Assembly (NCBI GenBank): GCA_030737835.1
Contig: CM060849.1
Location: 30,369,080 to 30,433,079, forward strand
Length of the DNA: 64,000 nt
Reading direction: 5' to 3'
From: Acorus gramineus
Taxonomy: Eukaryota > Streptophyta > Magnoliopsida > Acorales > Acoraceae
Below the pieces are notes generated by a model, which made no database searches, was not told the origin of the DNA, and was given only the letters and a program-made list of their open reading frames with translations. Numbering within the stretch: position 1 is the first letter of the stretch; every line of letters begins with the position of its first letter. This document shows, piece by piece, positions 4,441 through 49,651 of the stretch. The translations under genes and the position numbers were made by a program.

Positions 4441-6068
4441 TGAAAATTGTTATTAAAAAAAACCGATTAGTATCTCGAAGGTTAGAAAAAAAAAACGGTG
4501 ATTCTTCTCCTCAGCGACGCTCCTCATCTGCAATCCAAGCTCCAGCGATTCGAATCCAGGTTAGTCTATCTCTTCTTTTTGTTTATCTACTATGGGTTTT
4601 ATTAAAGAGTTTTGAACTTTTGATTGGTGTGACTCACTGTCACATGTGTCAACACTGTGAAGATTGTCAATTTAAATAGATCAAGGAAAAACATTAAGTT
4701 CTGTAGACCCACTGGAATCATATATGCTTTTTGAAACATGATTAATTATATTCACTACATGAGAGAATACATGGTCGGGCAGTTGCTTATGCCACTCTAG
4801 CATATAATTTAAATACTGACAACTTAAAAACGTAGAGAAGATGTATTGAGATGCATAAGCAATTATTTTATTTATGTTCTAAAAAATAAGGAGTTGTAAA
4901 ATAATGAGTTTGACTTTGACATCACATTTTAGTGAAAATGGTAGAGGGTAATAAAGAGAAAAACACTCAATATGAAACGAATATCAGGACATAATTAACA
5001 ATCTTATAACATTAGAAAACGAATATCAGGACAAAATTAACAATTTTATAACATTAGAGTGGGAGCTGATAATAGTGAATATCGAGTTTATTAAGGATCT
5101 ATGGGTGACATTAGTGCATGGAACTCCCACAATCCAATTCTTGGACAATTTCATCTCGATAATGTGATAGATTCCCCCAATGAAGGAGCCATTCAATCTG
5201 ATCCATCAGATATCTTTTTTTGTTGAAATATGAGACATGCGTATGAGAAAGTTCAGAATAGTAGGTTGTGAATTTTAAACAAAATTATTATTATTTTTTT
5301 GGAAACTAAATAATAAATTGAAGAAAGAAGATTTACAGACAAAATTATTTATATTAAATGATTTACAACCAAAACAGAGTAATTTTGGGATTGAAGTTCT
5401 AACTATTTAATGGACAGAATTTAAAATAAAAACATAGAGGATTTTCAATTTCAGAATATATTTCCGAAACAAATTTCTATATATATTTTCAATTTCCACG
5501 TTCACCAAAATAGGAAAAAAAGCCAAAAAATGGGACCTGATGTGAGCCCATCTTGAATGAAACCTTATTAACTTTAAAAAACACAAAAAAAAAAAAAAAC
5601 TGAGTGCCAAAAAACTATTAAAAAGTGGAAGTTGGCTTCTCATATATTCAAATTATAAGAAATTTATGTCTTGAACAATGATTTTTTTTTTTTTTTGAAG
5701 ATTATGCATGTACATAATTTAAAAAATAGTTAGGAATTTATGTAAAATCATCTGGCAAGCATTTATCAATGAAAGCATTTTGACAATGAACACAACCACA
5801 ACTTTAAATTGAAAAGCATTTAGATCCGTTTTGGGAAAAAAAATTTAAAAAGCTTTTCCATGAAACCTCAATCAGTTTCTTCATAAAAGCTACTACTATC
5901 AACCAGTTTTTTCATGAAAACTGTATTGTTGATTTTTAACACCCGAAAACCAAAATCTGAAATTAAAAGCTGAAATTCAAAAATACCCATTTGGAACTTA
6001 CTATCTGGATAATTGATTTTGCAAAATCCAACTTAGTTAGACACTTGGTTTAAAATGGATCCTAGCCT
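4441..6068. other. AT-rich intergenic region, nothing recognised
   Basis: No gene is supportable. A short direct duplication lies near 4975-5055, where 'CGAATATCAGGACA(T/A)AATTA' followed by 'ATAACATTAGA' occurs twice about 48 bases apart. The rest is low-complexity AT-rich sequence with homopolymer runs. Confidence 0.55.
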
Positions 6069-6318
6069 GATAACATGGGAAAATCTATTCTCCTCAACAT
6101 ATATCTTATATATTTTTTTCCTTCTTCCGACATCATAATCATGTATGTGTTTATTCAAAGAAAATGTTAATATGATAGTCTTCGCATATATCTGATAACC
6201 TGGGAAAGTCTATTCTCCTCAACATATATCTTATATATTTTTTTCCTTCTTCCGACATCATAATCATGTATGTGTTTATTCAAAGAAAATGTTAATATGA
6301 TAGTCTTCACATATACCT
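6069..6318. repeat. Two-copy tandem duplication, period 125 bp
   Basis: The unit starting GATAACATGGGAAAATC at 6069 is repeated at 6194 (GATAACCTGGGAAAGTC). The copies run 6069-6193 and 6194-6318 and differ at only a few bases, so the duplication is fairly young. It has no coding capacity and no transposon ends. Confidence 0.9.
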
Positions 6319-7230: not shown

Positions 7231-8299
7231 ACTAATTCTTGTAAATGTTTTTGCTGGATTTTATTAGATTGCAATTTATAACCTTTTTCTATAAGTGCCA
7301 TATTCGATTTCTCTCAAAACAAGTACCGTATCAGTTTGCTTTGTTGATTTTCTAATGGAGGTACACTTGTCATCAGAATCCAATTAATCACACCAATTGC
7401 TGAGTCCCCTCCTCCTTTTTGAGGCTTGTAAAAACATGTATATGGAACTCTTTTTGGGAATTAATACAATGTACATATACACAATGCACATGCGCAATAT
7501 CTATAAATGATCCAATCATTAACCTTCTGTAAAATTCAATTGCAATACTTTCAATAATGTTGGTTCATATATGATCCTACAATGAGATTGAGTCATGTTG
7601 CTGTTTGTCAATGACCATAAAAATACATATCAAGTTGCTAAGGCAGGAATTGGAATCATGCTAGTTCATCTTTATGGATTATATTAATCTAAATTAGACA
7701 AAACATAAACTACAATATATTGCATTAAAAAATAGAAATATGATAAGGGTGCGGCCATACTCAAAAGGAAGCTTGCTTGACTTAAATCTTGGTGCGTTCA
7801 TGGATTTCCCAGCATGTTTAGAATAATGTGATCATTTGAGAACCATGAACTTGAGGAATTAACACCTGATGCCAACACCTTTCAAATACAATCCTGGTTT
7901 GGACATGAGTGACCACAAGGACTTGATGGTATCTTTTACTTTGGGAAATTAAAAACATTGCCCTCCCACATAAAAGATCCTTTGAAAAACTAAAATACTC
8001 CCCTATGTCTTTTACACTTATGCATAAGGTTGTATTTTCCTTTTTCAAACATTTAGGCATTCAATTTCCTTAAAATATCACAATTGACTCCCCATGCCAA
8101 AGGAAAATTGCCCCTATTACACTCATTTCATGCCCATCCACACACACTTGAGAAGAAATTGCCCTAGTCTTGCCCATTTGAGGTTCCTTTTCATTCTCAC
8201 ACTTGGAATCACTTGGACCCCCTCCCTTTTTTACAACAAGGACGGTTTCTCGCACTCTTTTCCTCACATTACTTTTCGATTACCTTAGATGGGTTGTAG
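7231..8299. other. Intergenic region up to the left edge of the first LTR element
   Basis: There are only short open frames, in both strands and out of register with each other, and no recognisable domain. From about 7.9 kb the base composition becomes richer in C on the plus strand. The left limit of the neighbouring element fragment B1 is therefore uncertain by a few hundred bases. Confidence 0.5.
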
Positions 8300-9107
8300 C
8301 CCTTGACAATTCGAACAAGAAGGACTCGAAAGTCAGTGCAGGGGCACAACCCGGACAGATTTAACACTTGGTCCATGGAAGGAATGTTTTTACAGGTTTT
8401 GAAGGTTGAACAAACGCTAGCCAGGACATTCAGCAGCAGCAGACAAATGGCAGAATCAGAAAATTGTCCCAGGCCAGGGGCGGCTGACCTCAACTAGCCG
8501 CCTGCCACCAGATGGCTGAAACCAAGTAGCCGTCGCCAGACAGGTATATTTACCAGTCCTGGGGCGGCTAAACATGACTAGCCGCCCCTCACTGGGCGGC
8601 TAGTCTGAACTAGCCCCCCTCACCTGCTACCCCCAACCTGCACTGTTAGTCCAACTCAATCAACTCTTCAACCCTTTTAAGACCTGTCAAAAATCTTTAT
8701 TTCAAAAAACCTGTACACACACATTCCATACACATACACAATCCCTAAACCTGCATAAATACAAATCAAACAGCAACCAAAACTAAAAACATATAACAAC
8801 CCATGCATCCATACACCAATCCATCCACGCATTAACACATTCATGCCAAAACCATAAACCATTCCATACATACACCCACTGATTCAAACAAAACTTTCAA
8901 ACCAAACCAAACCATCCATGTCTATCCATAAACCCAAAAGAAAGGATAAATTGTTCATAAAACAAAAAGTTAGAACCAAAGAGAACCAAAGAAAACCTAA
9001 GTTAGAACCAAAGATAAAAGATAGATCCACCAAAAGCTCCAACTCCAATGTCTTGAGCTGTACATCGTCAAAACAAATCACCTAAGCCAAAAGAAAAGAA
9101 GAAAAGC

Positions 9108-12100
9108 ATGAATTCCTTGCATATATATACATTTCTTCTACCAAAACCAAGGCACAAAAGACTTTACCTCGGAGTGTCGTCATCTCCGGGAGGTTGGGCC
9201 GAAGGAGGAGAGGACTGGACCTCTGGAGCATCTAGAGCAGGAGGAGTCTCCCTTACTGAAGAAGCAGCTCTCGTGTATCTCCCACGACTCTACGTCGCCG
9301 AAGGATGAGAAGCCCGACTGAAGGTCGCCCCCGTAGCAAAGGAAGCAGAGACCGAGTGATCAGGCTCGAGAGGTAGAAGGTCGAGGTCCACCTCTGTCAT
9401 GGACCCTCCGCCAACCAGCTCTCATGGTGGCCTCCCAAAGGTGGACTTGCTGCATGTCCCGATCTCTCCTCTCTAACCTCTGGCGAAGGCGACCCTCCAT
9501 GCTCCTGGATCGGTCCTCGGCTACCCTCAACCTCTCTTCCAACTCCCATGCCCTCACCTCCGAAATCCTGAGAGCCTCCTGATCCCTGTCCCCAGCCGCC
9601 TGAAGGGAACGAACCAGGTCTCCCATCAATCCACCAGGCACGCCAGCCGACGCCTCCAACTCTGACACCCTGTCCTGGAGGGAATCCCGCTCACGGCCCA
9701 GAATTGAAGACTCCTCCTCCCTCAGCACGACACGGGACCATAGCTGGTCCATCTTCTCCTCTCTCAAGACTCTCTCAGACCACAACTAATCCACCTCGTC
9801 CTCAGCCCTCGTAGCCCTCTCCCTCGCCTGATCAAACTCCATCCGAGTGGCCAGAAGCTCGCTACGGACCATGCCCAGCTTGTTCACCAACTCGAACTCC
9901 CGATCGGTGGCACTGGACAGAGGAGGAGTAGAAGAGGAAGAAGCACCATCGGCTCTCGCTCTCGACAAAGCATCCACCTGAGCCTCAAGGACCCGAACCT
10001 GGTCCTGCAAGCGTCGCCTCTGCGCCCGCAACCCTTCTACTTGCCCGGCCCGTGCTTGGAGGTGCTCATTGGCGGTCTCAAGCTTCTTCTCCAACTCATT
10101 CAGCTCAACCTACAAAAGAAAACATCATTTAGAACACAAAGAGAAGAAGCAGGGAGGGAAAAGAGAAAGGATCTTTTCTTACATAGGCGTCCGGGATCTC
10201 CTCCTCCATGGTCCCGAGGATGTCGACATATTCCTGGCGGAACCAGGCCATGTACTCCTCGCTGCTAACAACCTCAGGACGACGCTCTACCAAAGTCCCC
10301 CTCTCGACCCATCCTCGCACATACACTGCATAGTTCCTCGGGAGGTTCGTATCCCGAGGAATTCCAGCCACCGGGATTGAAGGACGCCTCGGCAGGGGAT
10401 CTGGCACCCACTGATGGTACCCTAGCTAGCGGAATACCTGGCTAATTGCATGGCAGACCACCTCATTGAAGAAGATCAGCCAGATGTCCCGCGATAGCTC
10501 CTCGGGGACCGCCTCCTCCGTGTAGGGCCTCCAGGTCATCTACAGAACAAGATACAGAAGGATAAGGAAGAGAGCTCAGACAAAAGAAAATCAAATACAA
10601 GCTAGAAAATCAGAAAATATATACCTCTTTTTCCTTTAACGCACGGAAGGCCTCTCGGAATTGAGCGAGGTGGCGCAAGCGAGAAGCCCCTGGAGGCGCC
10701 CATCTCATGGCCCAAGGGAGGGCACGGTCGAAGACCAGCTGGGTCGGGCGAGCGATGGCGAAGTGCTCATACCCAAAAATCTGCAGAAAGAAAGTCAAAA
10801 CCGAAGTCAGGTGAAGTGAATAAACTTAAATCAAATCATTTCTATCTTCACTAAACTATACCTGTAGAAATGCCGCAAAACCGCTGAGATTCTTGCCCCT
10901 GGCCCTCTTCACCTTCTTCGACAACTCCACGAAGAGATGAGCCAGCATGGCTGCCCCCCAAGCAAAACGGCCCATCGTCGCCAAGTCCCTCATCAGCAAC
11001 AGAGAGTGAGAAGAGACTTTGTCGGAGGCCGTCGAGAAGAGAACCCGGCCGAAGAAATAGAGGAAGAACGCCCTCAACTCCCTCCGTGCCCTTTGTGGGC
11101 ACGCGGCCGCCTCTCTAGCCTCGATCATCAGCCGTCTCCTCTCAAAGCTAGCTACAGCTTCACCCTTCTGACACCGCGTGAAGAAGCTGAGGCCGTACTG
11201 CCTCGAAAGCTGTCCGAGAGGGATCCAGTTCAGTGACCTCTCCCGCTCCACGTACTCCCAGCCGCCAATCAACTCCTGGAAGAGCGCCTTGTAGTCTGGG
11301 TTGGTGGCCGCTATCACCGCCTCACCCAAGGCTGGGAGACCCGTGATCCGCTGAACATCCTCCAACGTCGGCATCACCGCACCCGTAGGGAGAATAAAGG
11401 CGCAGCTCTCTGGATCCCATCGCTCCACCAACACCTCTAGATAAGGATGATGGACATGGAACGGCTCTATCAGAAAGAAGGAGAGAAAACCCGTTCCATC
11501 TACTAGGTTCCTCTCCTCTAGCCTTAAGGCGGAGTACCATCTCTTCGTCCCGTGCCACAAGGCTCGAATGCGATTCGGCCGCTGAAACAACAGAAAAAGA
11601 GGGGTTAGTCCAAAGACGTCCGAAAGGTGAGGATCCTAAAATGAAATTTCATTCTAAACCATGCTTAAAGAATTAATATGCAAGCATGAAATATTCGAAA
11701 CATGAATACACCTCTTTTTTACCCCATAAACACTCCCACTGTGGTCTATCTCTAGGAACAAATCGAAATTATTTAAAAGTTCCCCATGCTTAAAACTACA
11801 TAGACACACTTTCTTCTTGCCATGTAATAGCATGCTTATGAAACTCCCACCGTAATTATCAACACATACTTGCTTACCTTTCTATGCCCTTATCACATCA
11901 AAGCATATCTATTCCAAGAATCATCACTCCACTAAAAACTCATGCATATGCAAACCCACCACCAGCTCTTGTACTAAAACAACACCATACCTATATAGGC
12001 AAACCCACTATGCAAGCATGTTAAAACATTCTATAGACTATGAAATAGCATGCTTATAACACTCCCACCGTGATCATTTTTCATACACAAACAAACATGC

Positions 12101-12961
12101 CTATTTTAAAAATGCATATATATATATACTTCTTACACACTTCATGCATACCACCAAAAACATATATATTCATACATTTAGAACAAGGTATACATACATT
12201 TAGAACAAGGTAATAGATAGAGAGAAATGGAGGCATACCACGGCTTGTGTAGCCCCAAAAGCCTCCCGCTCGGCCTCGTTAGGATCGTCTCCCTCCTCGT
12301 CATCCCCCTCCTCCTCGATCACGGCCTCGTCAGGATCGTCTCCCTCCTCATTATCCCTCTCCTCCTCGATCACGGCCTCCTTAGCCCCCTCCACACCAAT
12401 CCCCCGGCCTCTGCGGCCTCAACCCCAGCACCCATGGCCTCCTCGGCCTCAAACCCAATGCCTCCGCCCTCCTCCGTGCCCACCGCACCAGAGGTCAGCA
12501 CCTCGTAGTCATCCAAGGCTCTCCTTGCCTGCTACACTAGCCTCACCATCACCAAGGCCACCCTCGTCCTCACCAAATATCTTACCCAAGATACGGGCCA
12601 TCTTCTCACTAATAACAGCCCCCTCACCCCCTGCCTCCTCGGCTACACCCTTGGCCGATCCTCCAGCCTCAAAACCAACACTTCCGGCTGCCACCGGACG
12701 ATCACTGTGCTTCCTCTTGCGCGTATACCCGATCACCTCACCCCTAGGAACTGTAGAAACTCCCGGGACAGCCCCCGAAGGCACATCCCCAACCAAACCC
12801 GTGCCGGCACCCACCAACGGCGTCTCCGCCGCACCTATCACGTCACCCACGACCTCCTCCTCCACCCTATCGCTCTCCGACGATAAGGAGCTTGAGCTAC
12901 GCTTTCCACGAGCCACCCGCGGTCGTTTCCCCCTCAAAGCAATCGTCTTCGACCTCGTCAT
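9108..12961 (-). pseudogene. Antisense gene of element B1: plant mobile domain plus coiled coil
   Basis: A multi-block coding region runs against the element's own direction, starting near the 3' LTR at an ATG at 12961. The first block (12961 to about 12240) is Ser/Gly/Glu-rich with a basic start (MTRSKTIALRGKRPR) and a KRKHSDRP nuclear-localisation-like patch. The next (about 11579-10856) is a plant-mobile-domain-like core (PF10536 type; GFLSFF, LPTGAVMPTLEDVQRITGLP). A short block follows at about 10783-10625, then one at about 10540-10180. The last (10111-9360) is a long Glu/Arg-rich coiled coil. The gaps start with GT and end with AG and look like introns. Similar domains occur in host MAIL-type genes, but the position between element sequence and its LTR favours an element-borne gene. 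It looks broken in one or two places. Confidence 0.6.
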
Positions 12962-13806
12962 CTTCTCGGGTTACAAAGAAAAAGGAGAACCCAAAGACTT
13001 AGGGTTTCAAAATCAAGAAGAGAAGATCGATTGGGTTGAAATGGAGGAAGAAAGGGTAAAGAAAATAAAAGTTTTTCTATTTCAAACGGAGAAGAAGAAG
13101 AGAGGGAGGAAGAACTGTTTTTGAAAGCGTGCGGGAGAGAGAGGGTCCTTTTCGGTTATAAGGGACCCAGTCAGCCGGCGGCTATGCGCGAGTAACTGCC
13201 CCCTGCTCGACGGCTAAATACAACTAGCCGCCCCTCCCTGCCGGCTAAACACAACTAGCCGCCCCCTGCCAGCTTCTCAAACACACTTATTTCCAAGTTT
13301 TCTAAAACAAACAGCCATGTATTGGTTTATTTCCAAGTTTTACTTGATCAAACAGAACTTTCTCAAAGTTTTACCACAAATTCCAAATACCGTTCAGTTC
13401 AAATTTCCTCAGTTCTGGTTCTTTTTCAGAATCTTTGTCTTTCGAATGATCCAATTCACCAAATCAAACACACCTTTTCTTTCTTTCTGTCGGCGATATC
13501 CCCTCTTTGCTGAGCTACCCAAGCACGGGTACGGTAGGCATGAGGAAACTGACGCTAGGCTGCTCTGTTCGAGGGTTGGATAACTCGCTTCTTTACTTTT
13601 ACTCACTCTCCCATCTGGATCACTCCTTAGATAACCATTCTAGTTAAAACCCAGCCTTTGATGACCTAAATTACCTCCCTGAATGGTATTTGGTCATGTG
13701 TCCTAAACTTCGTGAAGGTTGGGCCGGCCAAAATAAGGGTCTCTTTCCTTATCATCGATCGAAGTCTTTCTGTTTCACACAAAGACTCCGTCCGATGAGG
13801 GACAAT

Positions 13807-15090
13807 TGTAGATACCCTAATTTTGACCATCCAAAGAAAAGAAATTTACTTCAAGTAATATTGGAAACAACCACTTTTGGACATCCAAATAGAAAACTTC
13901 CTTAGAAGTCGAAACCAGAAACCCTAGTCCAACACTTAGAAATATCTAAGAGCCTGGACAGGGGCGGTTGCTTGAGAGTAACCACCCCATACCAGGCGGC
14001 TAGTTTCAACTAGCCGCCCCCCTGACCGACCCTAAACTGCCTTCCTAGATGGGACATAAAGCAAGCATGATTGCGGCGGATTGTCCCTTCTAGCCGCCCC
14101 ATCTCAGCCAGTTCATCCTTAGTAACCGACCCAAGCCACCGCTTGTCAGAGATGGGATATATGGCAGGTTATGATGGGGGCGGCTACCTGAGAGTAGCCG
14201 CCCCTCACTGGGTGGCTAAATACCATTAGCCGCCCCTCACCTGGACACTGTCAGAACAAAGATCTAAGGGGAGGTCAAATATGGCACCTTATTACCCATT
14301 TTGATCTATTGTCTAGTGGACATTCCCATACCCCTATTTTACTATAAATAGGGGGGGGGGGCAATCAACATCATCAATAAGAATCAATACACATTCAATA
14401 CCCATCAATAACCCCCAACCACCCACATTCCCAACCATCAAGCCACACCACCACCTCAAACCCTTGAGAGAAAAGTGAGAGAGAAATCCATTTCCTACAT
14501 AAATCCATTCTCTAAATCCACTCTCCAAAACCCAGGTTAAACCCAGTTTAACCTCTGCCAAAACCAAACCCAAACCCTACCCAGGTTCTGCCCAAATTGA
14601 ACCAGACACCAGGCGGCTACCCAGAACTAGCCGCCCCCCCACCAGGCGGCTAAACCCAACTAGCCGGCCATTCCTTATCCCACCTCAAGTCCCAATTCTC
14701 CTCTAGTCAGTTTCCCGAAGCAGAAGAGGATCCCTTTCTTCACCTCTGTGCACGGCATATCTGTGTTTCATAGCGGAGACCCCACAAACTCCCCACGAAG
14801 GTGATCAAATTCGCCCCAACTTTTCCTGCTTTTTGAGAAAAGCAGGTGGCGATCACAACCACCCTAAATCCTCCAGAGGACCCGTCGGCTGCCTCAGCCA
14901 GGAACGAAAACCCCACCACCCCTTCCGAGAGACGATCTGACCGAGCCCGCCAAGGCGCAGCTCTCCAGATCCGAGCCTCCAAAGAATCCCCACACACGCA
15001 CAGACCTATCGGAGGAGGAGCCGAAGAGGAAGGAAGAGAAGGCCCCTACCCTTTCATTCCCCTTTTTCCTTCCAAAATCCAATACCGACA
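13807..15090 (+). repeat. LTR of element B1 (1,284 bp)
   Basis: Starts TGTAGATACCCTAATTTTG and ends AATACCGACA, so it has TG...CA termini. The same LTR in reverse orientation lies at 48395-49651, by eye roughly 80-85% similar. U3 carries several GGCGGCTA...TAGCCGCC hairpins (13971-14235) before a TATA box at 14343. A further hairpin pair lies in the transcribed leader (14611-14669). Only this LTR of B1 is present. Confidence 0.8.
14343..14350 (+). promoter_or_regulatory. TATA box of the B1 LTR promoter
   Basis: TATAAATA is followed by a G run and about 540 bases of LTR upstream. The same box occurs in mirrored position in the B2 LTR (49136-49143, minus strand), which supports a conserved U3 promoter. 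Confidence 0.6.
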
Positions 15091-16506: not shown

Positions 16507-17203
16507 TGAGGTGGATATTTCCCCCTTCAGTTAAATTTATAGATTTTTTTGCGGTAAGCCTCAAAAATAAGAATTTGTGACTATATTTTACTCAATGACT
16601 GATTGTGCTTGACTGGGCCTTTAGAGTGCTGTCGCGCGACCTCTTTATAGGCTGTCACCTCTTTATAGGCTGTTACGTACCCCTTGGGGATCAAGTCACA
16701 CGTAGTTCCTTTTTCACCCTTGTAACCGCCTTGCCACTAAGTGTTTGGTTGGCCTTTTTCCAGGGAAACGTGCCCAGTATTTATGCTCCACGTCGGCCCT
16801 TGCTTACCCACATTCTGTTGGTAGTGGGCTTTAGTGCCAACTTGGCAGTTACAGGTGTTAGTGGTTTTTGACCGTTTCTCCATTCTACTCGTGGTCTCTT
16901 GATGTGCTTGCTTGTACGTCTCACAGTATGATTGCGAGGAGTAAGGTCGATCAACCAGACCTCATGTCTGGTCATGCCTTAGACTGCTCATTTTCGAGAA
17001 GTAAGGTCAACCAACCAGACCTCATGTCTGGTCGTGCCTTAAACTGCTCGAGGTGACAAACCCTTAGTCAAGTCATGCCCACACATTTTAAGATGTCATC
17101 ATAAGATTGCCCGACCTGGATCAGGTCTTTGTGGGCCTCAAGTCAAATAGCCCATGTCTGTCTCGTCTTGACACGTGTCCTAGTGCAGATTTTTACCTCC
17201 ACA
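16507..17203 (-). repeat. 3' LTR of element A1 (697 bp)
   Basis: TG...CA termini; paired with 28203-28896. It contains a two-copy 60-bp tandem repeat (about 16933-17052), each copy centred on the hairpin CCAGACCTCATGTCTGG. It also has an 18-bp duplication of CTCTTTATAGGCTGT (16640-16673) that the partner LTR lacks. Confidence 0.9.
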
Positions 17204-18918: not shown

Positions 18919-19514
18919 TGTGTAACCTTTATCCAATCAGATGAATAAAAAATTACACTTTGTGTCAACCTTGCTCTCGTTACTTGTGTCGTTTAGCCAA
19001 GTCCTAGGCTATCTTCCTTGTCGCACGCTTACTTTTTCCCGCCTTAGCACTTCAAGGCTAGTTGCTTTGATTTCAACCGCAAATTGCCCGTACTAGACTA
19101 CTAGGCTACTCTGCGTGAAACAAACAGAGATGCCTTATGTTATGCCCTCGATCATGATGCTTCTGGTTGCGTCCATCTGGTCGTAACGACCCTTTCGCCG
19201 ATTTGTCCTTTCATGAGGCCATGTGGAAAGTCAGAGATAGAAACGTCATAGACTCGCCACGTAAGTCGCACATCTATCGAAACTGATGCCTCGCCTCCCG
19301 TGCCAGCTGTCCCTTGATTTCTACAGAAGATTTCGATGGTAAATCTTCCACGGTCTCGATTTTCACACCTTTGTCAAGATTGCGGGGAGCTCTCGAGGAA
19401 GATCCACCCCCATAAGCACTCATCACTTGACGAGAAGAGGAGAGAGAATTCAAAAATCAAATCCCCTCGCCATTTTCAAACTTTGCTTCTCCTCGTTTTT
19501 CTTCTCGCACTACC

Positions 19515-21590
19515 ATGTCGATAGACATTGTCCAGAGGCTGCGAACTTCACTATCCATTCCAGATTTCATCATTTTCACTCCACTCCCTTTAAAACCATA
19601 GACGATCTGAAGGGCCACACCTCTGAGAAGCTTTTCATTTATCCCTCTCAGATGCTGAGAAGCTCTCTCTCTTTCCCTCTCCCTAAACTGGTCAGGGATT
19701 TCATGCGCGGATTCAAGCTTCATCTGACTCAGTTCTCCCCCAACTTGTTAAGGGTTTTGATGTGTGTCGTGACGATCAATCGCAAGCTGCAGCTTCATCT
19801 CGGGGTAGATGACATCTACCACCTTTACAACTTGAGGAAGTCAGAACACGCGTACTATCTGCGAGCGAGGCCCGACGCTACTCGTCTGGTGGAAAAGCTT
19901 CCTTCATCTGACAGTGGTTGGCGGGAAGAATGCCTCGTGCAGTTGAGTGGCCCTTGGGTGCTTCCTGCTCCCATTCCGGGTGAAGAGGCTAGGGTGCCAT
20001 GTTGTCTCCATCTGACGAAATTGGGTGAGCATAAAAATCATTGGACTTTTATGCCTTATTTGCCTTCTCCTTTGTAGCCAATGAATCTCATTTGCTCCTT
20101 GCAGATGACTCGAAGTGTGTGACCCCAGACCCGTCAGTGGTAAAGTTCGATCAGATCACCAAGGCTCAAGAGTTGGAGGATAAGGATTTCTGTAAAATCC
20201 TCAGCCTCCCCGTAGCCAGGGCCCCTGGTTCCTCTTTGAAGGTTGATGGCTTGTCTTCGGGAGTCGATGCATCTTCCTCCTTCGTTGAAGCTTCTCCCTC
20301 TACCGTTTCTAAAGAAGTGGGTGAATGGTCTGCTGCCTCCAAAGGCAAGTCAGCTATGAAGAAGAGGCCTAGGCTGCCACTTCCTTCGAAACGGCGAACT
20401 AAGGCTGCTCGTCTGGCTTTATTAGTTGAAGAGGTGGACTCTGAAGGCAGAGCCAAAGCCCTACCAGACGTTTCCCGGACATCCCCTGTGGGAAGTGATC
20501 TTCCTTCGAGTGCTGTTGGTGTGGCTACCGTCGAGCTTCTTGTGCCTTCCAATGAAGAGGGATGCCCACCAAGTCCCCCAGTTATTCGAGTACCAGAGAT
20601 GGTGGAGGTTCCCTCTCCTCTAAAAATCGAGGCGATTGCGGATCTCGTCTCCGATCATCCAGTAGTTGCCTCCAGAACTTTAGTTGGAGAAACTACTGTT
20701 GAACCCTCCCTCGCCGAGGAGGTAGCGGCCATGGCTTTCTCAGCTCCCTTGTCTGGGGTTACTCTAGTTGCTGCGGCAGGCTTAGTGCCTGTGGTTGTTG
20801 TCCCATCGGAGGTGCCCTCAGCCAAGATGTTGGAGAGTACTTTCAACATCTTTCTCCTCTGAGGGTGCCACCAGTCACTTCAACTCCTGTTGGGATGCCC
20901 CCAGTTGCTTCAGCTGTGGTGGATGCACCCTTCATCGCGACGTTCGTGGTTCCATTTGGTGCTGCCCTGAAAGCTGAGGTTCCGCGTTCAGCATCCTTGG
21001 AAACCCCTTTGGCCCCTGCTTCCGCAGCTACAACTGGTACCCATTCAGGAGGTCCTCTTGCTAATCGTGCCAGCAAGGAGTTAGCCAGTACTCATCTCAG
21101 GGACTGTCTTTCGCGAGGGTGACCTGGACTATGCTCGCCGGGCTACGATGGAAGCTCTTTTCACCTGACTAGGCTGGAGCTTTTACAACGTAAGTGTTTG
21201 ACTTCTGTCTTTGAAATTTCTTCTTCAAGGTTTTAACCATTTGCTTTTAAGAACTATGTCATCTGGCAGGTGCTCATTGAGAGAAGCCTGGACGCGATGA
21301 GGTCTGAAGATCTCATGAGGTTAGCCCAAGAGCTCGCTCATCATAGAGAAGCACAGCTGAAGTCGGCTGAGGAACAGATTGTGATCGCGAAGCGAGCATG
21401 CCTTGTTGTGGAACTCGTAGAATCCTTTGCTCGTCGAGGCTTGTCTGCTGCTCAAGTTCGGGTTGTTGCTGCTGAAGAGCCTGTGAGAGAGCTTCTCGAG
21501 TTGAAGCTCTTCCAATCTTTCGATCAGGCTTCTTTCTCCTTGCGGGCGCACAATGCAGAAAAGCGAGTCGAGGGCCTGATGCATGAGTAG
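19515..21590 (+). pseudogene. A1 antisense ORF nearer integrase
   Basis: A second antisense coding region, starting at ATG 19515 (MSIDIVQRLRTSLSIPD). The first part contains LPKLVRDFMRGFKLHLTQF, then LLRVLMCVVTINRKLQLHLG, DDIYHLYNLRKSEHAYYLRA and KLPSSDSGWREECLVQL. This too is PF04195-like. A candidate intron starting GTGAGC lies near 20024-20104. The middle is Ser/Pro/Val-rich with a basic patch (KKRPRLPLPSKRRTKAARL, nuclear-localisation-like). The C-terminal block (21270-21590) is alpha-helical and coiled-coil-like. The A3 homologue (40369-39221) is open for 382 residues over the corresponding N-terminal and middle part. The A1 copy is broken. Confidence 0.6.
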
Positions 21591-28202: not shown

Positions 28203-28896
28203 TGAGGTGGATATTTCCCCCTTCAGTTAAATTTGTAGATCTTTTTGTGGTAAGTCTCAAAAATAAGAATTTGTGACTATATTTTTCTCAATGACTGACT
28301 GTGCTTGACTGGGCCTTTAGAGTGCTGTCGCGCGACCTCTTTATAGGCTGCCTACGTACCCCTTGGGGATCAAGTCACACATATTTTCTTTTTTACCCTT
28401 GTAACCGCCTTGCCACTAAGTGTTTAGTGGGCTTTTGTCCAGGGAAAAGTCCCTAGTATTTATGCTCCACGTTGGCCCTTGATTTCCCATGTTTTGCTGG
28501 TAGTGGGCCTTAAGTGCCAACTTGGCAGTTACAGCCGTTAGTGGTTTTCTGACCGTTTCTTCATCCGCTCGGGCTCTCTTGATGTGCTTGCTTGTACGTC
28601 TCACAGTATGTCTACGAGGAGTAAGGACAAGGAGTAAGGTCAACCGATCAGACTTCATATCTGGTCGTGCCTTAGACTGCTCGTTCTCAAGGAGTAAGGT
28701 CGACCGACCAGACCTCATGTCTGGTCATGTCTTAAACTACTCGAGGTGACAAACCCTTAGTCAAGTCGTGTCCGCACATTTGAAGACGTCATCATAAGAT
28801 TGCCCGACCTGGATCGGGTCTTTCTGGGCCTCAAGTCAGATAGCCCATGTCTGTCTCGTCTTGACACGTGTCCTAGTGCAGATTCTTACCTCCACA
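28203..28896 (-). repeat. 5' LTR of element A1 (694 bp)
   Basis: Pairs with 16507-17203; the same TGAGGTGG...CTCCACA ends, and by eye about 10% different. It has the same CCAGAC...GTCTGG hairpins in two spaced copies (about 28647 and 28707). Confidence 0.9.
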
Positions 28897-30475: not shown

Positions 30476-32539
30476 AAAAAGTTTTTCTCTTGGTTTCTAT
30501 TCGTTGTGAATATTTTTGTAACCCCCCCAAATCCACGACTCCCTTTTGAAGCGTGAGATCCAGTTGCGTTAACTATTTTCCTCAAATCTCAGAGTTCTTT
30601 TTTTTTCTTTTATCCAGAGATATAATAAATAATACTAAAATAAACTTCATTCTTCAAAGATACCAAAACATCTAAGATTTCAACAATACTCCCAATGTGA
30701 CTGGATATAACTGATACATAAATGGGTTAAAGACATCTAAGTCCTTACAAACATGAAAAAATTCATATAAGTCCCTATTAAAATTGGGACACATGTACGA
30801 ATCCCTAAAAACTTAGAAAAACTCAATTATCATCCATGAGTTAAATTTTCATCCAAACTTAACAGAATATTCTTATAATATTCTATCGCATATAATTGTT
30901 TAGACATTAAAGTCCTTATAAACAGTCATAAAGACAAATAAGTCCCTCCAAAAGACAGAATCACCCCTAAAAGAACTTTTACATTAAATTGTGTACATAT
31001 TGTAGTCCCTATAAATAATCATAAAGACAAATTAGTCCCTGCAAAAGATAAAATTGTCCCTGAAAGACTTTTACATTTAATTGAATAGACATTACAGTCC
31101 TTATAAATAATCATAAAGACAAATTGGTCCCTGTAAAAGACAAAAATACCCCTGAAAGATTTTTACAATTAATTGTGTAGACATTGCAGTCTTTATAAAC
31201 AATTATAAAGATAAATAATATAATTTATTTATTTATTTATTTTATCTTCTATCCTATCGCTCACACTCCACCTAAAGATCTCAATTTGGATGTAAAAAAA
31301 ATATTTTAACCAGTAGGATCCATTCTTTTTATCTTTTTGTTTGTGAGGAAGTAAAAAAAGTGACATGATTTTATTGAAATTCTCTATGCTAGGAATGTAA
31401 ATAAACAAATTTTGTAGAAAATCATGTATAGGTATTTCAAAGCAAGCAAACACCTTAAAGAAAAGAGCATTATTCATTACTTGTTCAGGTAGAGTGTGAA
31501 CAATAAGATAAAAGATGAAAAAATAAATAAATAAATTATATTATTTGTCTTTATAATTGTTTATAAATAAATAAGGACTGCAATGTCTACACAATTAAAT
31601 GTAAAAATACTTCACGGGCATTTTTGTCTTTTAGAGGGACCAATTTCTCTTTATGATTATTTATAAGGACTGTAATGTCTATCCAATTAAATGTAAAAAT
31701 CTTTCAGGGGTAATTTTGCCTTTTGCAGGGACTAATTTGTCTGTCTTTTTCATTGTTTATAGGGATTGCAATGTATACACAATTTAATGTTAAAGTCTTT
31801 CAGGGGCAATTTTATCTTTTACAGTGACTTATTTGTCTTTATAACTGTTTATAAGGACTTCATTGTCTATACCATTATATGTGATGGAATATTCTGGGAA
31901 TATTCCGTTAAATTTGGATTAAAATTTAACTTAGGGATGATAATTGGGTTTTTCTGAGTTTACAGGGACTCGTCCGTCCGTCTCAATTTTAATAGGGACT
32001 GTCACGCCCCGGGCGTCCCCGAGACGCGGCAAGTGTATATAAAATATCAGAATCTACACAGGAGGTCAATAATATATCATACCCAAGCAACCAGAATGAC
32101 ACACAGACAACAAAAACAGGGCTGACATGATATATACACCAAATGCGGAAGCTAAGACTGAATCTGTAATTAAAACGCACTACAGACTCCATACATAATC
32201 ACATGTCCTGTGAGAGCCAATATACATACAAAGACATCCAAATACAACACAAAACGCGTGCCCAAGCACGGAAAATAATACATACAAGCTCAAGGGATGC
32301 TGATAGCCTCTGAAACTCGCGGGACGTGGCGCTACTCCGCTACTGATGAAGTCCCTCGGGGAGCTCCTCCTCCAGATCCGACTCAGATGACACTGAAGAA
32401 AAATATTGTGCGAGGGGTGAGCCACACGCTCAGTGAACGGCACAACCCATGCATCACAGACAATATTGACCACAACCAGGAAATCCTTAACATCCACAAT
32501 CTCATTACCAAAACCACAAAAGATAACAATTCCGCAACC

Positions 32540-34640: not shown

Positions 34641-37600
34641 ACCTCCGACCACCACCACAGCCTCCGACCACCTCCCACAGCCCCCCGACGGCCACCTACC
34701 GCCGCCAACCTCCACCCAACCCCATTTCCACCCTCCTAGCATACATCTAAGCAAGAAAGAGAGGAAAAAGTGGCTTACCAAGGGGAGGAAGGGAAATCCG
34801 GTTGCCCTCCGCGCACTGAAACCTCTCCCAAAAGGTTTCCCACGCCCGGATCTACCTCCACCACCGAAATGGGCCAAAACAGAGGAGAAGAGAGGGCGGA
34901 CGGAGGGGCAAATCTCGCCGGAAAAGGGATTTGAAACCACCGGGGTGTAGATCGGGACCCGATCTACACTTCCTAGGTTTTAACTTTTAAGGTTTGAGGG
35001 GTCTAAGGGCCTCAAAAGCAAGAAAAACGGAGGAGAGGAGAGAGAGAGCTCAAGGTAGGAGATGATGAATAGTGCCAAGCTATTTTTAGATTTCACTTTA
35101 TATAGCAAGCGACTTAAAAACCCAGATACGCCCCGGAACTGTGAAATTTCGGAAACGTTACCGGAATTCAACGAAATTTTTGTGAGAGGCTTAAAATGGC
35201 ACTAGGACACCAAATATGCAGTTAGATTTCCAATCGGAGTCCTCTAACTCAGGACGATAGCTAACAGTCCAAAAATTAGCGGTATCGATCGAAAATCGAA
35301 AAAAAACAGAAAAACTACAAGAACGCTCCAACGGTTACCAGCAGGCTAAAAGTGACACATATATAACAGGGACTTATATGGGTTATCCCATGTTTGTAGG
35401 GACTTAGATGTCTTTAACCCTACATAAATATATACAACTTGCCATAATCATAGGTACTAGGGAGATGGGCTGACTACATGCCAACAAAATTGATCAAGTC
35501 CTTTGACCAAGCAAGTCTAACGTTCTCGCACCCACGATCTCGTTCGCAGCTACACGAGATCCACCAATCTAAGCCTTAAATCTAAAAGATGGGAAAAAGG
35601 AGGGGTGAGCAACCACACGCTCAGTGAATGGACTTTTAGGTCCCAACAATACAGTATATCAAAAAATAATAATCTTTAATATGATATCGTAAGGAAAATT
35701 CGCAATATACAATAAAGTGATATTTACAAATTCAATAAAATGATATTCCAATAACCAGAACTTAATAAAATTCTCATTTCAAAATGTATGGTCTCATCAA
35801 ATCCTGTCCAAATACATGATGCGCATGAATGCAATGGACACGCATGCCCGTCTTCCAAGGCACCTAGCCATAAGGATTTCGCTCAGGAAATCGTGTCACC
35901 TAGACACACGTCACCTAGACGAAGTCACCTAGACTTGGGTCAATTCTGAACCATAGTCACCTAGACTGAGCCACCTAGGCTGCGCCACCTAGGCGATGCG
36001 ATGCATGCATGATCAACACTTATATTCGTTCCAAAACATATGCATGCGATAGATTTAAGAGTTAAATATTTTCAACACAATACGTAATAAGGCATCCGCC
36101 TATATAATATGACATGCTCGAGTTTTATACATAAAATAGCAATTTAAATCATCATGACATGTCAATAAAATCTTTTGAAAACTACATAAGAGACTAGACC
36201 CACTCACCTTCGGTCCTACGCAAGACGACCAAATTAACAAGAAAGCTAACGAAGTCTACTGCTCCTGAGGGTATTCATACAAATGAACCAGATCAGAAAC
36301 GAGACACATAATAATTAAATAAAAAACAAAGAGCACCAAAAAGACTGGACTCAGCCGGCTACTCAAACTTAGCCGCCATGCCTCCGACGGCTGGTTTCAA
36401 GTAGCCACCCCATGGCAGACCCAAAAATAGCAAATATACCCCTACTGACCCCGATTTCCCACCCAAACATCCAAAAACCCGTACCTACTCTCTCTCTCAT
36501 AAAGAAATAGATAATAACACGTTGAAAACATTTAAGTTTGGTCCCCTAAATGATCGATTCAAAAATAAATCAAAATATCAAAAAACGATAAAATCTCTAT
36601 AGAACAATTTGAAAAATGATGATATTAACACCATATACTTTCATACCTCAAAGTAGTATTACCATATTATATAATAGTAGATTAAATGATGATAAAGTGT
36701 TCTAAGACATGTTTCTATCATGTATGTCGAGTTTGTGTAGAGCTAGGCATGATTTCTGTTCAAATATCGATTTAATCAACAAAACTCAAATCATAAATCA
36801 TGAAATTTGAATCAGTAAACCAGAAAACATCATAACGATAGCAAGATCTATGATATAAACAAATCCAATACGATGTTCATGTCTTTCTAACCCTAGATCC
36901 ATGCAAAGCCATGAATTGTGCATCAAAAGCTCACATAATCCATTCGGAAAACCTTGAAAACCACTGATCTAAAAAGTATACGAATAAATAACATGGATCT
37001 ATGATAAAACTCATCAAAACAGCGATGAAAACACATGAGGTTCTGGTTCATGCAAGGTGGTACCCAAAACAAGGCATTAGAAACCCTAAACATGCTTTCT
37101 ATCTTAAATAGTAAAAAATAGTGTGTAATCTTGTAAAAATATCTTAAAAACATCATCAATGGATTAACATAACATCAAGATCCAAAATAAATCAATATCA
37201 CATAGAAACCATGAAATAATAAAGAAGGAAAACCCTTAAAACCACGTGAATCTGAATCAACTCGGGATGAACCCATCATTGGTGATTAGCAGCAATTAAA
37301 ATTCTTAATTATCATTAAGAAAAACAAAGTAGAGGGACTCACCTTAATCCTCAAAGGATTTCCTTTCAAAAATCACCCAAAAGACCCCTTTTAGGGTTTG
37401 ATAAAATACGATCGAGAGAGAGAGAGAGAGAGAGGACTCAAATTAGGTTTTCAAATGGGGTCCTAGGGCATCCAAAGTTGGGTATTTATAGGGGAAAACA
37501 CGTGCATGACTTGCCCCCTAAGAAAATAATCAATTATATCTGACAGTTCTATTAAACCTTAATTTCTGCACTTCTGCATAGGCGTCCAACGGCTACTTAT

Positions 37601-38127
37601 ATTGAGCCGTCAGTGGAGAGACGACTACTTTCAAGTAGCCACCTCTGGACAAAGACAGCTACTTTCAAGTAGTCATCTTTGGACAGTTTTCCCAGGCCAG
37701 CTGCATACAAGACACAAGAACGGCTATAACTTGATCGATATGTATTTGATTCATGATATGTAAAAAGCGTTGGAAAGCCAACAAAACAAGGATTCCAACC
37801 ATGCCTTAAATTCTGATATTGGAGATATATAAGTCCTCCAAAACCTTACAGAAATATGACCCAATGCACAAAATCAAGAAACGACTAGGAAAATCATAGT
37901 CGTTACAATTTTATGTGAATGAAAGCCTGTTCGAGGTCGCGCAAGAATAGCACTCTTGACAAGAGGTAGCAAGAATAACACTCCAAAGAGGTCACGAGAA
38001 AAGCACTCGATGGAGGTCACGCATTGATCCAGTTCAGGTCGATCAGATGAGCACTCTTCTTAGAAGAGGTCGCGTTGGGGACGCCCCATCCATCGATTAA
38101 GCACTCAAGTAAAAGGCAACAAAAAGT

Positions 38128-42208: not shown

Positions 42209-42616
42209 AGAGTTTTCAAAGATCGAAAGGGGAAAAAAGAGATGGGATGAGGAGCGCCTCCCTCTCGACCCTTAAATACCATCGAAGCAATGCTTCAAAA
42301 AGATGGCAGCACTTATTCGCTACAGATATCAAGATGGCAGCACTTATTTGCTACAGATATCAAGCAACAATCAATGCCAATAGAATGGGCTTCACAAAAT
42401 CCAAAGAGGTGCTGACGTTTGGATGTTCCAAACACCACAGGAGGCCATGCGCCATTAATGCTGACATAGCAAATTAGCAGTCAAATCCTGAACGGATCAG
42501 AAAATCCTGAGGAAACTGATGAGCAGATCTTTGACCTCCCGAGAGGGGCGGAGGCGAGATGTTTTTCTTGATTTCCTGCTCTCTCGACAATTCAAAAGAG
42601 CAGGAGAGGAGGCATC

Positions 42617-43267
42617 TGTGGAGGTAAAAATCCACACCACGATAAGTATTAGGCCAGGACTGACATGTCATAACAAGACGGATATGAGCCATGCGTGGGC
42701 CCTGTGAATCATAGTCTGGATTCTGAGCAATGATGACTTTCCTAGATGCGTTGACACAATTAGATCCAGGGTCTAATCGGACAGTCAGGCACCTCGCAAA
42801 AGAATACCACCCCGAGCAGTTAAGGCACGACCAAACAAGAGGTATGGTTGGACGACCTTGCTCCTCGCGTACGAGCAGAGAAGACACGACCAGACAAGAG
42901 GTCTGGTCGGGTGATCTTCCGTCTCGCAAACGTACTCAAAATGACGTGACGGGTAAATGAGTAGGCCAAAGGGCCACGAGCAGACTGAAGAAATAGTCGG
43001 AGGAACGAAACACCTGTAACTACCAAGTTGGCAATTAAGGCCCACTACTTACGAAACGTGGGTAATCAAGGGTCCGACATGGAGAACATTTCCTAGGAAA
43101 AAAACCCACTAAACACTTAGTGGCAAGGTAGTTATAATGCTAGTTAAGAAACTACGGGTAACTTGATCCTCAAAGAGTACGTAGACAACCTATAAAGAAG
43201 TCACGCGATAACACTCTAAAGGCCCAGTCAGTCATTGAGACAAAAAAGACAGGTTCAAGCTACCAAA
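42617..43267 (+). repeat. 3' LTR of A3, right end truncated
   Basis: Starts TGTGGAGGTAAAAATCCAC right after a purine tract and is about 85% similar by eye to the reverse of the A2 LTR (52303-53049). It stops short of the expected CCTCA end: the last roughly 85 bases of the LTR are absent and a palindrome marks the break. Confidence 0.8.
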
Positions 43268-43300
43268 TTAATTTTCTTTGGTAGCTTGAACCTGTCTTTT
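43244..43300. repeat. Perfect 24-bp palindrome at the A3/B2 junction
   Basis: Arm 43244-43267 (AAAAGACAGGTTCAAGCTAC plus CAAA) is exactly complementary to 43277-43300, with the 9-base loop TTAATTTTC. The first arm is genuine A-type LTR sequence. The second is an inverted copy of it, followed by CTTTGGCATTCGC, which is B2 reverse transcriptase. Confidence 0.9.
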
Positions 43301-46585: not shown

Positions 46586-47902
46586 TTAAGGTCTGGCTAT
46601 GGGTAAAGAAATACTATTGGCTTTTACCAATGCCTTGAAGATGTTTGCTAGGGTTTCCGGGAGCGGTGGATAACAGTCCTTCCTATTTAACCATCTTGGG
46701 CCATAAAATGTTGGAGGGGAGACCTCATTGTAGGGGCCTTGTGTAGGCTGCCTGGGAGCTAAATTTTTTGCTCTTGGGGGAGCAGAGTAGGCAGGGGGAG
46801 TTCGGGATTGACCCTGATTTTGAACTATAGAGTTATGGACTGAAGGGCTTTGGATTACTAGGTTTTGTCGTGTCAGCACAGGGGCAAGTACTGACCGGGG
46901 AGTGAAGTTTTGATTTGTTTGCCGAGGAAGCATATATCCGGATAAACCGGGTGTATACTATCTCGGAGCTGGTCCTTGATCAGGGACTTGCGCTCCGTTT
47001 TGGTAGAGTGCCGAGACTTGTGTGATCCCCTCTACTGTGGGGGTTTGCGCTTTTCTTGGTGGTTGTCCAACCCTATGGCTGATAGGTGGGGACTTGGTTT
47101 GGGCTACTGGGGCTGCATAGCGGGAAATCCTGTTGTGGCGGTCAATTAGAAGCTGGTACGTGGTGCAGTCTCCGTACGAAAGACTCGTACGAAGCTCTGG
47201 ACTTAGGCTCTGTAACATCATGTCAATTTCTTGACATTCCGTTAGTTGTAGGCCAGTTCTGTGGACTAGGGTGCGCCACCTAGACACGTACTGTTCAAAT
47301 TCCTCCCTAGGCCTCATCCTCTCTACGGTTAGGTCTGAGATAGAGGGGGTTCTAATCCTCTGGTAACCGTAACGGCCTAAAAATTTCTCACTTACAATCA
47401 AGAAATTTGACAAATGGTCTATAGGGAGTGTGGAGAACCATTGTAGTGCTTCTCCTTCCAATGATTTTTGGAAAAAGAAGACCAATAGAGGTTGATTGTC
47501 TAGAAAAGGTTGAGCGTCTAGATAAAAAGCAGTTAAATGAATGTCTAGGTCTCCGCGACCATTATACCGATGAAATTTTGGGATTTTAAATCCCTTCGGG
47601 AGACTGACTGACAGAATTTGTTTCAGGTTGTGCAAAGACATGTTTTGGGGTAGAAGGGCCAATCTCGGAGAGGATTCTCCGGATGGTTTCGTCCAGTGTT
47701 TCCACTTTGGGTGGGTAGTTTAGTTTTCCTGGGTTGGACATGGCCTGGTAAGGGCCGGGGTAGAAGCTGCTGGAAATATTGGATTCACGGGGGAATGTGG
47801 GGCGAATGAAAAGGGACTCGGATTGACCCAGAAGCTAGGTGCTAGTGGGATTTTGGGGGTGGGGCAAGCCTTTGGGGTTTTGACAGGGGTTTTCTGCTTC
47901 AA
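46586..47902 (-). pseudogene. B2 gag
   Basis: The minus-strand gag core is FKIPKFHRYNGRGDLDIHLT, LVFFFQKSLEGEALQWFSTL, FLGRYGYQRIRTPSISDLTV and REEFEQYVSRWRTLVHRTGL. Then follows a Pro/Gln-rich region with YCPYHQHHGHTIEQCF-like residues near 46530, the usual zinc-knuckle position. Broken. Confidence 0.75.
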
Positions 47903-48394: not shown

Positions 48395-49651
48395 TGTCAG
48401 TATCGTTTTTTGGGTAGGCTTTTCCGGGGCAGCGGGGTGCACCTGAAAAAGATATTGGCGGCTTTGGGGCCCCTTTCTTTTCCGCGTGTGTGGTGGGTCC
48501 TCGGGGATTTGGATCTGAGGCGTGCCTTGGCAGGCTCGGTCGGATCATCTCCCGGAAGGGGGAAGGGTGTCTTTAGTTCCTTGCTGAGGCGGTCAACAGC
48601 TCCTCAGGAGAATTCAGGGGGTGTTTGTGATCGCCACTTGCTTTCTCAAAAAGCAGGAAAAGTTGGGGTGGATTTGATCACCTTCGTGGGGGAGTTTGTG
48701 GGGGTCTCCGCTCTGAGACACGGGCATGCCGAACATAGAGGTGCAAGACAAGGATCCTCTTCTGCTTTGGGAACTTGACTAAAGGAGTTCTGGAAATCAG
48801 GGTGTAGGTGAGGGCCGGCTAGTGAACATTAGCCGTCTGGTAGGGGGCGGCTACTTAGGAGTAGCCGCCTAGAACTTGGCTCTATTTGGGCAGAGCCTGG
48901 TTAGGAAATGGGTTAGGGTTTGGCAAGGGTTAAGCTAGGTTTAACCTGGGTTTTGGAGAGGGTCTGGGAGAGTTGATTTGGAGTGGGATTGGGTGGAATT
49001 GACTCTCTTTTTCTCTCCTTCTCAAGGGTTTTCAAGTGGTGGGTGTGGGAATATGGGTGGCTTGGGAAGGAAATGTAGGTGTTGATTTTAATTGGGGATT
49101 GGTTGATGATGTTGAAGAAGTGCTTGGAGACAACCTATTTATAGTAAAAAAAAAGGGTAGGGGAGTGTCCATTGGACAATAGATCAAAATGGATAATTAG
49201 GTGCTTGATTTGACCTCCCATTAGATCTTTTGTTCTCTGACAATGTCCAGGTGAGGGGTGGCTAGTTGGAACTAGCCGCCCAGTGAGGGGAGGTTACTCT
49301 CAAGTTGCCGCCCCATCATGACCTGCCAAACGTCTCATCTCTGACAAGCGGTGGCCTGGGTCAGTTACTAAGGTTGAACCGGCTGAGATGGGACGGCTAA
49401 AAGGAACAATCTACCGCAATCATATTGCTTTATGTCCCATCCCAAGGAGGCGGTTTGGGGTCGGTTATGGGGTGGCTACTCTCAAGTAGTCGCCCCTGTC
49501 CTAGTCTCAGATTTCTCTAAGGGTTGGACTTAGGGTTTCCGATTTTGGGTTTCTAAGGAAGCTTTCTTTATGGTTTCCAAATGTGTTCATTTCTAAATGT
49601 TACTTGAAATAAATTTCATCTTTTTGGATGGTCAAAATTAGGGTATCTACA
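48395..49651 (-). repeat. 5' LTR of element B2 (1,257 bp)
   Basis: Reverse-oriented counterpart of 13807-15090: on the minus strand it starts TGTAGATACCCTAATTTTG (49651) and ends CGATACTGACA (48395). It has the same TATAAATA box (49136-49143) with GGCGGCTA-type hairpins upstream (49257-49313 and about 49463-49497) and a hairpin pair in the leader (48813-48870). Confidence 0.85.

Follow-up and report, generated by a model that had tools for sequence, protein, structure and literature searches.

Palindromes of 24 bp in the long terminal repeats (LTRs) and around an antisense open reading frame (ORF) of an Acorus gramineus retrotransposon family probably form a cis-regulatory array, one that would be read as double-stranded DNA by a putative dimeric or multimeric protein. 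We put the probability of this reading at about 0.6. The window, by which we mean the whole stretch analysed, comprises 64,000 nt of contig CM060849.1 (positions 30,369,080-30,433,079, forward strand) and contains pieces of two copies, B1 and B2, of the family, here called B. The palindromes take up recurrent positions, keep a near-constant spacing, are constrained in their half-sites but not in their loops, show no sign of compensated pairing and, in the loci examined, are confined to B and to a second family, X.

The unit is GGCGGCTA-N8-TAGCCGCC, found chiefly in tandem twos and threes. When as many as 3 mismatches are allowed the window holds 20 units, whereas 100 shuffles averaged 0.06 and never exceeded 2. 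Genome-wide (398.6 Mb), with loops of 4-12 permitted, there were 1,625 copies with exact arms, and the loop was exactly 8 in 1,606 of them; the control with reversed letters yielded 0 copies over the whole genome. Hairpins with no more than 2 arm mismatches, loops of 4-12 being again permitted, number 126 in the window and 20 genome loci, and 125 of them have a loop of 8. The length of the loop is nearly fixed, then, while its sequence varies. Of 40 steps between the starts of tandem units in the same loci, 33 measure 32 bp, 6 measure 31 bp and 1 measures 33 bp. Since the loop is 8 and the step 32 bp, one half-site would follow another at about 16 bp, or about 1.5 helical turns, with the orientation alternating. 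In each of 40 LTR pieces retrieved with hairpin-free probes there were between 2 and 7 units when 3 mismatches were allowed, and the CGG-CCG core palindrome occurs in many copies per B LTR.

The coordinates are collected in Table 1. The U3 of B1 carries two pairs of units and a single degenerate one, the TATA box lies 107 bp beyond the end of pair II, and a further pair sits in what is presumed to be the transcribed leader. The right arm of leader palindrome b is most commonly TAGCCGGC in young B copies and TAGCCGAC in old ones (these groups are defined below). The hairpins that a first-pass annotation had placed in these elements are present, with slightly corrected coordinates, although their loop is usually 8 instead of 6-10. 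Its hairpin at 13971-13988 exists, but with limits that cut into the true unit, its body copies at 8480-8617 and 13173-13266 are units at 8479-8618 and 13177-13263, and it had missed the degenerate site. The mirror layout that it described for B2 holds for pair II and the leader pair; the palindrome at 49471-49494, however, is single, its pair I partner being absent. Downstream of the B2 protease ORF there is a G-patch match (PF01585, 44779-45258, minus strand, E 0.00026) just below the gathering score; this domain has been reported previously in plant Gypsy elements (PMC9289625). An LTR of another family, A, comes after the B2 gag and protease ORFs at 42612-43279 and appears to interrupt the element.

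Table 1. Positions in the window of the palindromes and of the elements that carry them
Feature	Position	Strand	Basis or remark
B1 element	~7,760-15,002	+	3' part of element; limits from alignments
Palindromes on 3' side of antisense ORF (four)	8479-8502, 8511-8534, 8563-8586, 8595-8618	.	
Antisense ORF, plant mobile domain (PF10536, E 2.5e-26)	10856-11635	-	Between B1 body start and 3' LTR
Candidate antisense TATA, CTTATAAC	13155-13162	-	Putative promoter, from sequence
Palindromes on 5' side of antisense ORF (three)	13177-13263 (13177-13200, 13209-13232, 13240-13263)	.	
B1 3' LTR, ~1.2 kb, begins TGTAGATACCC	13807-15002	+	Aligned to B2 and LTRs of fetched loci; right end approximate
U3 pair I, palindrome a	13963-13986	.	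Decayed arms GGCGGTTG/TAACCACC
U3 pair I, palindrome b	13995-14018	.	Exact arms
U3 single degenerate palindrome	14075-14098	.	Left arm GGCGGATT
U3 pair II, palindrome a	14179-14202	.	Exact arms
U3 pair II, palindrome b	14211-14234	.	
B1 TATA box, CTATAAATAGG	14342-14352	+	Near-invariant columns in aligned copies; putative function, from sequence
Leader pair, palindrome a	14612-14635	.	
Leader pair, palindrome b	14645-14668	.	
Family A palindrome pair	16956-16970 and 17016-17030		
Family A palindrome pair	28649-28663 and 28709-28723		
Family X leader palindromes (two in window copy)	36354-36409	-	
Family X TATA-like box	37483-37490	-	
Family X LTR palindromes (three: 37654, 37620, 37588)	37588-37677	-	Nearest 97 bp upstream of TATA-like box
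Family A palindrome pair	42832-42846 and 42891-42905		
B2 ORF, aspartyl-protease matches PF13975/PF09668	45414-46613	-	Both matches just below gathering score
B2 gag ORF (PF03732)	46958-47719	-	
B2 5' LTR	48484-49651	-	Alignment; palindromes at 49471, 49289, 49257, 48846, 48814
B2 palindromes	49471-49494, 49289-49312, 49257-49280; leader 48846-48869, 48814-48837	-	
Family A palindrome pair	52761-52775 and 52820-52834		

The antisense ORF of B1 encodes a plant mobile domain (PMD), and PMD is found antisense in the same region of two further loci (L018 and L019). Modules lie on both sides of it; one of the four units on its 3' side, at 8511-8534, is weak, with 4 arm mismatches. A TATA-like motif stands 14 bp away from the first palindrome of the 5' group, its TTATAA is intact in 8 of 10 aligned copies, and judging from its sequence it may drive the ORF from a promoter of its own. 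For gene23 of maize Grande, antisense transcription from its own upstream promoter is described (PMC7264820). PMD is known in Gypsy elements (PMC9289625; PMC5418596), and its presence here points to Ty3/gypsy for B. The family is perhaps a PMD-bearing, Ogre-like element, although the PMD ORF alone does not define it as Ogre, PMD being present in 57% of Ogre elements (PMC6317226).

Outside the window, two samples of loci bear on how far the motif is private to these elements. Twenty stretches, chosen from the list of exact matches in their order on contig C1, contained B sequence in every case, and 20 odd-loop stretches (16 two-sided and 4 one-sided variants) contained B elements at 19 loci, 18 of them clear and one, L087, through short matches. 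The remaining odd-loop locus, L081, is an apparent chance match in low-copy sequence. No host promoter in the loci of these samples showed the 24-bp palindrome; its concentration in B and X is a property of sampled loci and not of a full census. An independently mobile hairpin was rejected as an explanation, the odd-loop matches sitting in B at 19 of 20 loci.

Family X, an LTR-like family represented by 36,180-37,960 (minus strand) of the window, has at least 40 matches, the window copy included (40 of 50 candidates scored). Leader units are present in 8 of 8 further X copies, three in 7 of them and two in L048, and U3 units in 6 of the 8, L045 and L049 having unrelated upstream sequence. When the B1 LTR was compared in a sensitive search with the window copy and seven further X copies, all matches with E <0.02 overlapped the modules. 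No significant similarity between B and X was found outside the module in this search, and the weaker matches there (best E 0.05) look like chance. The final leader unit ends in TAGCCGGC in most X and most young B copies, a common end which suggests that the modules are probably homologous. In L087 (1-561), a B LTR has its pair I replaced by an expanded array of X type with a repeat of about 70 bp, in which some arms are altered on both sides (GGTGGCTA..TAGCCACC, GACGGCTA..TAGCCGTC). With an X-type cassette in a B LTR, it seems that cassettes move between families, or that X descends from a B lineage of the L087 type. Between two X matches that lie 14.4 kb apart on one strand, the 9.9 kb of L053, presumed to be X interior, had no hairpin at up to 4 arm mismatches and no ORF >181 aa, in a single copy whose frames may be damaged; family X looks non-autonomous, at least in this copy. 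Positions 8103-8533 of L053, in X orientation, match 35657-35422 and 30722-30517 of the window, which suggests that the window X sequence continues across an insertion.

Other features of the window deserve mention. The LTRs of family A carry a CAGAC-N5-GTCTG palindrome twice each, 59-60 bp apart and exact in 4 of 8 instances (Table 1). The loose pattern shows no excess over the window (19 found, 20.35 expected), so that only its paired, in-register placement is of note. Near family A sequence, 19343-20077 (plus strand) gives a weak Transposase_28 match (PF04195, E 0.0047, below the gathering score); Transposase_28 is the usual antisense product of Retand elements (PMC11963269). There is also an internally repetitive inverted repeat of about 510 bp (30770-31276 with 32000-31484; 85% identity, spaced by about 210 bp), a 365-aa ORF at 60112-61209 (plus strand) with no Pfam match at E 0.001, and tandem duplications at 6067-6316 (~125-bp units, 97%) and 53168-53649 (242-bp units, 95%).

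Are the arms under selection? A first estimate, which indicated strong conservation (context-matched ratio 0.63), was discarded because its sample, L005-L024, had been chosen for exact hairpins and was biased. It was replaced by sets retrieved through hairpin-free probes: a young, B1-like set (L025-L044, the 20 best matches to the B1 probe after the window itself) and an old, B2-like set (L054-L073, 20 chosen by hand among 39 matches to the B2 probe), together with B1 and B2. At first look the two probes gave about 1,300 candidate B LTRs. L032 was left out of the young set, as its sequence upstream of pair II was not alignable. The final comparison involved 20 young and 21 old copies, that is, 39 fetched LTRs plus B1 and B2, the copies in which the hairpins had first been noticed; the groups are defined by similarity to B1 or B2 and are not a phylogeny. 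Within groups, the arms vary at about the background rate, the ratio of arm to other variation being 1.06 in the young group (1.38 raw) and 0.85 in the old one (bootstrap 0.76-0.97; 0.93 raw) after matching for methylation context. Between groups, the arms had a net divergence of 0.016, compared with 0.094 for other LTR sequence, 0.142 for loops, 0.099 for spacers and 0.102 for the degenerate site, which makes the arms about six times less diverged than the other LTR sequence.

Near-fixed differences, defined as a different majority letter at a frequency of at least 60% in each group, tell the same story. They affect 2/94 arm positions versus 78/637 others (Fisher p 0.0013), and 9/48 loop positions (p 0.0010 against the arms); without the probe stretch the other sites score 34/302 (p 0.0064). 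When the arm geometry was placed 5000 times at other positions of the LTR, the net divergence of the arms was matched 0 times and their near-fixed fraction once. The U3 arms alone have 0/63 near-fixed differences and their neighbours 18/264, the leader arms 2/31 and their neighbours 5/32. The contrast is weaker when only C/G columns are used (arms 2/70, others 33/291, p 0.04), and the degenerate site is unconstrained between groups, with 4/24 near-fixed. Because the arms diverge so little between groups despite varying at the background rate within them, they appear to be constrained in the lineages that spread. Our reading of the aligned sequences is that inserted copies may decay freely, while the lineages that go on spreading would keep the half-sites and release loops and spacers. 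GC-biased conversion between arms could be an alternative cause of their constancy. The first-pass annotation had invoked selection on the inverted pair, to be judged by whether the hairpins are more conserved than the rest of U3, and a background rate of evolution was to count against it. The within-group ratios, taken alone, show such a rate; the between-group constraint does not, and supports selection in a form that had not been foreseen.

If that constraint fell on RNA, through stem-loops in genomic or messenger RNA that serve packaging, dimerisation or the production of hairpin-derived small RNAs, changes in one arm should be matched in the other, and we consider this quite improbable. 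Seven modules do fold better than shuffles (z -2.8 to -7.6), but good folding follows from palindromy itself. Two-sided arm changes exist in X and in L087 (GACGGCT..AGCCGTC; GGTGGCTA..TAGCCACC), and small RNAs map in excess to palindrome clusters of maize Sireviruses according to PMC10760457. Genome-wide, however, pair 3, to which this count refers, is intact in 1,606 copies, changed on one side in 307 and 312, and changed on both sides to T-A in 59, where 59.6 are expected from independent changes. The aligned copies contain 8 doubly changed Watson-Crick pairs, where shuffling gives 6.84 on average and at least 8 in 735 of 2000 rounds. C>T changes, which keep a G-U pair in RNA, are about as frequent (68) as G>A changes, which break the pair (77). 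That set consists of 42 rows, the biased L005-L024 included. It omits the degenerate site, all gapped rows and four misaligned cells (I.a and I.b of L032, leader b of L031, I.a of L023), as well as the final two columns of leader a and, in leader b, pair 2. Because the changes seen are probably mostly decay after insertion, these tests have low power for old compensations. Moreover, leader palindrome b usually has an unpaired position in both B and X, and the equal arms permit rival nested folds. The compensatory arm changes sought by the first-pass annotation thus do not exceed chance, within that power, and the conserved RNA or DNA hairpin that it had considered is not supported. Nor do we give much weight to the view that the units are a functionless by-product, added, removed and made alike through slippage and template switching in reverse transcription, which we regard as very doubtful. 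Turnover is real: units are lost as recurrent 32-bp blocks and by arm-to-arm deletions, and loops are exchanged as whole blocks among the sites of one element. In L033 the loops of I.b, II.b and leader b are all AAAACAAC; the II.b loop of L018 and L026 equals the loop at 13240, and that of L027 the loop at 13209. These exchanges would be expected if reverse transcription switched templates at the arms. Unbiased homogenisation, by our reasoning, should not slow long-term substitution, so that exchange alone leaves unexplained why the arms, and not the loops and spacers, are about sixfold less diverged. It also sits badly with the return of the module at like positions in X, an otherwise dissimilar LTR family.

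Two proposals name the protein that would read the half-sites. In one, host AP2/ERF factors bind the AGCCGCC of each arm and confer an ethylene or jasmonate response, which we hold unlikely as an account of the array. ERF factors are possible binders on sequence grounds because AGCCGCC stands in most U3 arms: copies of either group most often have it in both arms at pair I and II.b, as do the young ones at II.a, and the left-arm changes at II.a (in about half of the old copies) and at the degenerate site hit the inner TA and spare GGCGG. Boxes in plant LTRs are, as background in PMC2829016 has it, often sites of stress-related factors. The AGCCGCC content on which the first-pass annotation had relied is thus borne out at most U3 sites but varies elsewhere, the right leader arm being commonly TAGCCGTC, TAGCCGAC or TAGCCGGC, depending on the group, and the internal left arms in the window GACGGCTA or GCCGGCTA. 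With GCC-box letters often altered in leader and internal arms, there is no sign of a GCC box kept in both arms at every site, and the absence of the 24-bp palindrome from host promoters among the loci examined (B sequence in 20/20 and 19/20 stretches) also argues against this proposal. In the other, to which we give rather little credence, the array is an operator to which the antisense PMD protein of the element binds, for self-activation or anti-silencing, with X riding along. An element-encoded binder would fit, partly by analogy, the concentration of the motif in B and X among the loci examined and the arrangement of units around the PMD ORF and the LTR promoters; the presumed X interior, 9.9 kb in one copy, is without any ORF >181 aa. 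VANC proteins of VANDAL elements bind short, family-enriched motifs amplified in non-coding regions (PMC5735166; see also PMC10398659), and DNA binding is predicted for TRP28, the antisense proteins of Retand (PMC11963269). Against this, direct DNA binding by a PMD protein was not found in the literature examined, the DOWN promoter motif is linked to MAIN and MAIL1 by association only (PMC7156037), and PMD is present in 57% of Ogre elements as reported in PMC6317226. Its fullest version is similarly speculative: a retrotransposon with its own operator and factor, in which the antisense PMD or another protein of the element would bind half-sites at the LTR and at its own promoter and activate or un-silence the family, the apparently non-coding X having taken the cassette and using the factor in trans.

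We favour an array of DNA half-sites whose binder may come from the host or from the element. Each unit would present two inverted TAGCCGCC half-sites 16 bp apart, and units would follow at steps of about 32 bp, close to three helical turns, so as to be used by a putative dimeric or multimeric DNA-binding protein. The pattern looks more like a docking array for protein than an RNA hairpin, and a constraint on a double-stranded half-site array is supported. From position and constraint we infer protein binding and control of transcription: most likely, the array would set the transcription or chromatin state of both the LTR promoter and the putative antisense promoter, the latter being a probable target. 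Consistent with this model, X, dissimilar outside the modules, has the same module in its leader and upstream of its TATA-like box, and modules flank the antisense PMD ORF and a TATA-like motif; Sireviruses provide a precedent, with palindromic CGG-CCG boxes that precede both the TATA box and ENV (PMC2829016). A module downstream of the TATA box, which is less usual for an enhancer, argues against it.

The palindromic RM boxes of Sirevirus LTRs (Ty1/copia), as presented in PMC2829016, are the nearest described system. Like the units of B, they are high-copy CGG-CCG palindromes upstream of the TATA box, and ENV-bearing Sireviruses have extra boxes 5' of ENV, comparable to the B units at 13177-13263 on the 5' side of the PMD ORF, a likeness of accessory genes that we take as an analogy; the account given there names no common binder. 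B differs in being a gag/protease element with an antisense PMD ORF, in having half-sites 8 bp apart around a variable N8 loop and units at about 32 bp in twos and threes, in its leader copies, in sharing the module with a dissimilar LTR family and in a constraint measured between groups. Arrays of VANC targets in VANDAL elements resemble those of B as short, family-enriched motifs in tandem units, in several non-coding regions and with an accessory gene; however, as PMC5735166 describes them, they have one orientation, belong to a DNA transposon and are bound demonstrably, while B has inverted half-sites, is an LTR retrotransposon and has a putative binder. PMD is shared with the 57% of Ogre elements that carry it (PMC6317226), and the part of Retand elements that lies between pol and the 3' LTR holds antisense ORFs and, in roughly half of the elements, tandem arrays (PMC11963269). 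Palindromic LTR arrays are not mentioned in the main texts on Retand (PMC11963269, 'palindrom' occurring in references only) or Ogre (PMC6317226).

Open-access literature on GCC boxes, ERF, hairpins and Tnt1-type boxes offered nothing closer than the Sirevirus boxes. The LTR activator boxes of Tnt1 type are, like the B units, repeated or dyad-symmetric promoter elements of U3; Tnt1 is a Ty1/copia element with a defined stress response. We know of no copies of its boxes around an accessory gene, unlike in B. PMC2829016 refers to the symmetry of Tnt1 box I. Palindromic LTR arrays and PMD genes were each known before. What is new, within the open-access literature searched, is the combination of array and PMD, the variable loop of near-fixed length, the cassette common to a dissimilar family and the pattern of free variation within groups and constraint between them.

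Family B thus offers a very numerous array, with 1,606 exact units, in a PMD-bearing family, and one in which the free variation of inserted copies can be separated from the constraint on lineages. The 56-bp module of two units is a defined probe with which a host- or element-encoded binder could be fished out, and the array bears on the role that antisense genes may have in such retrotransposons.
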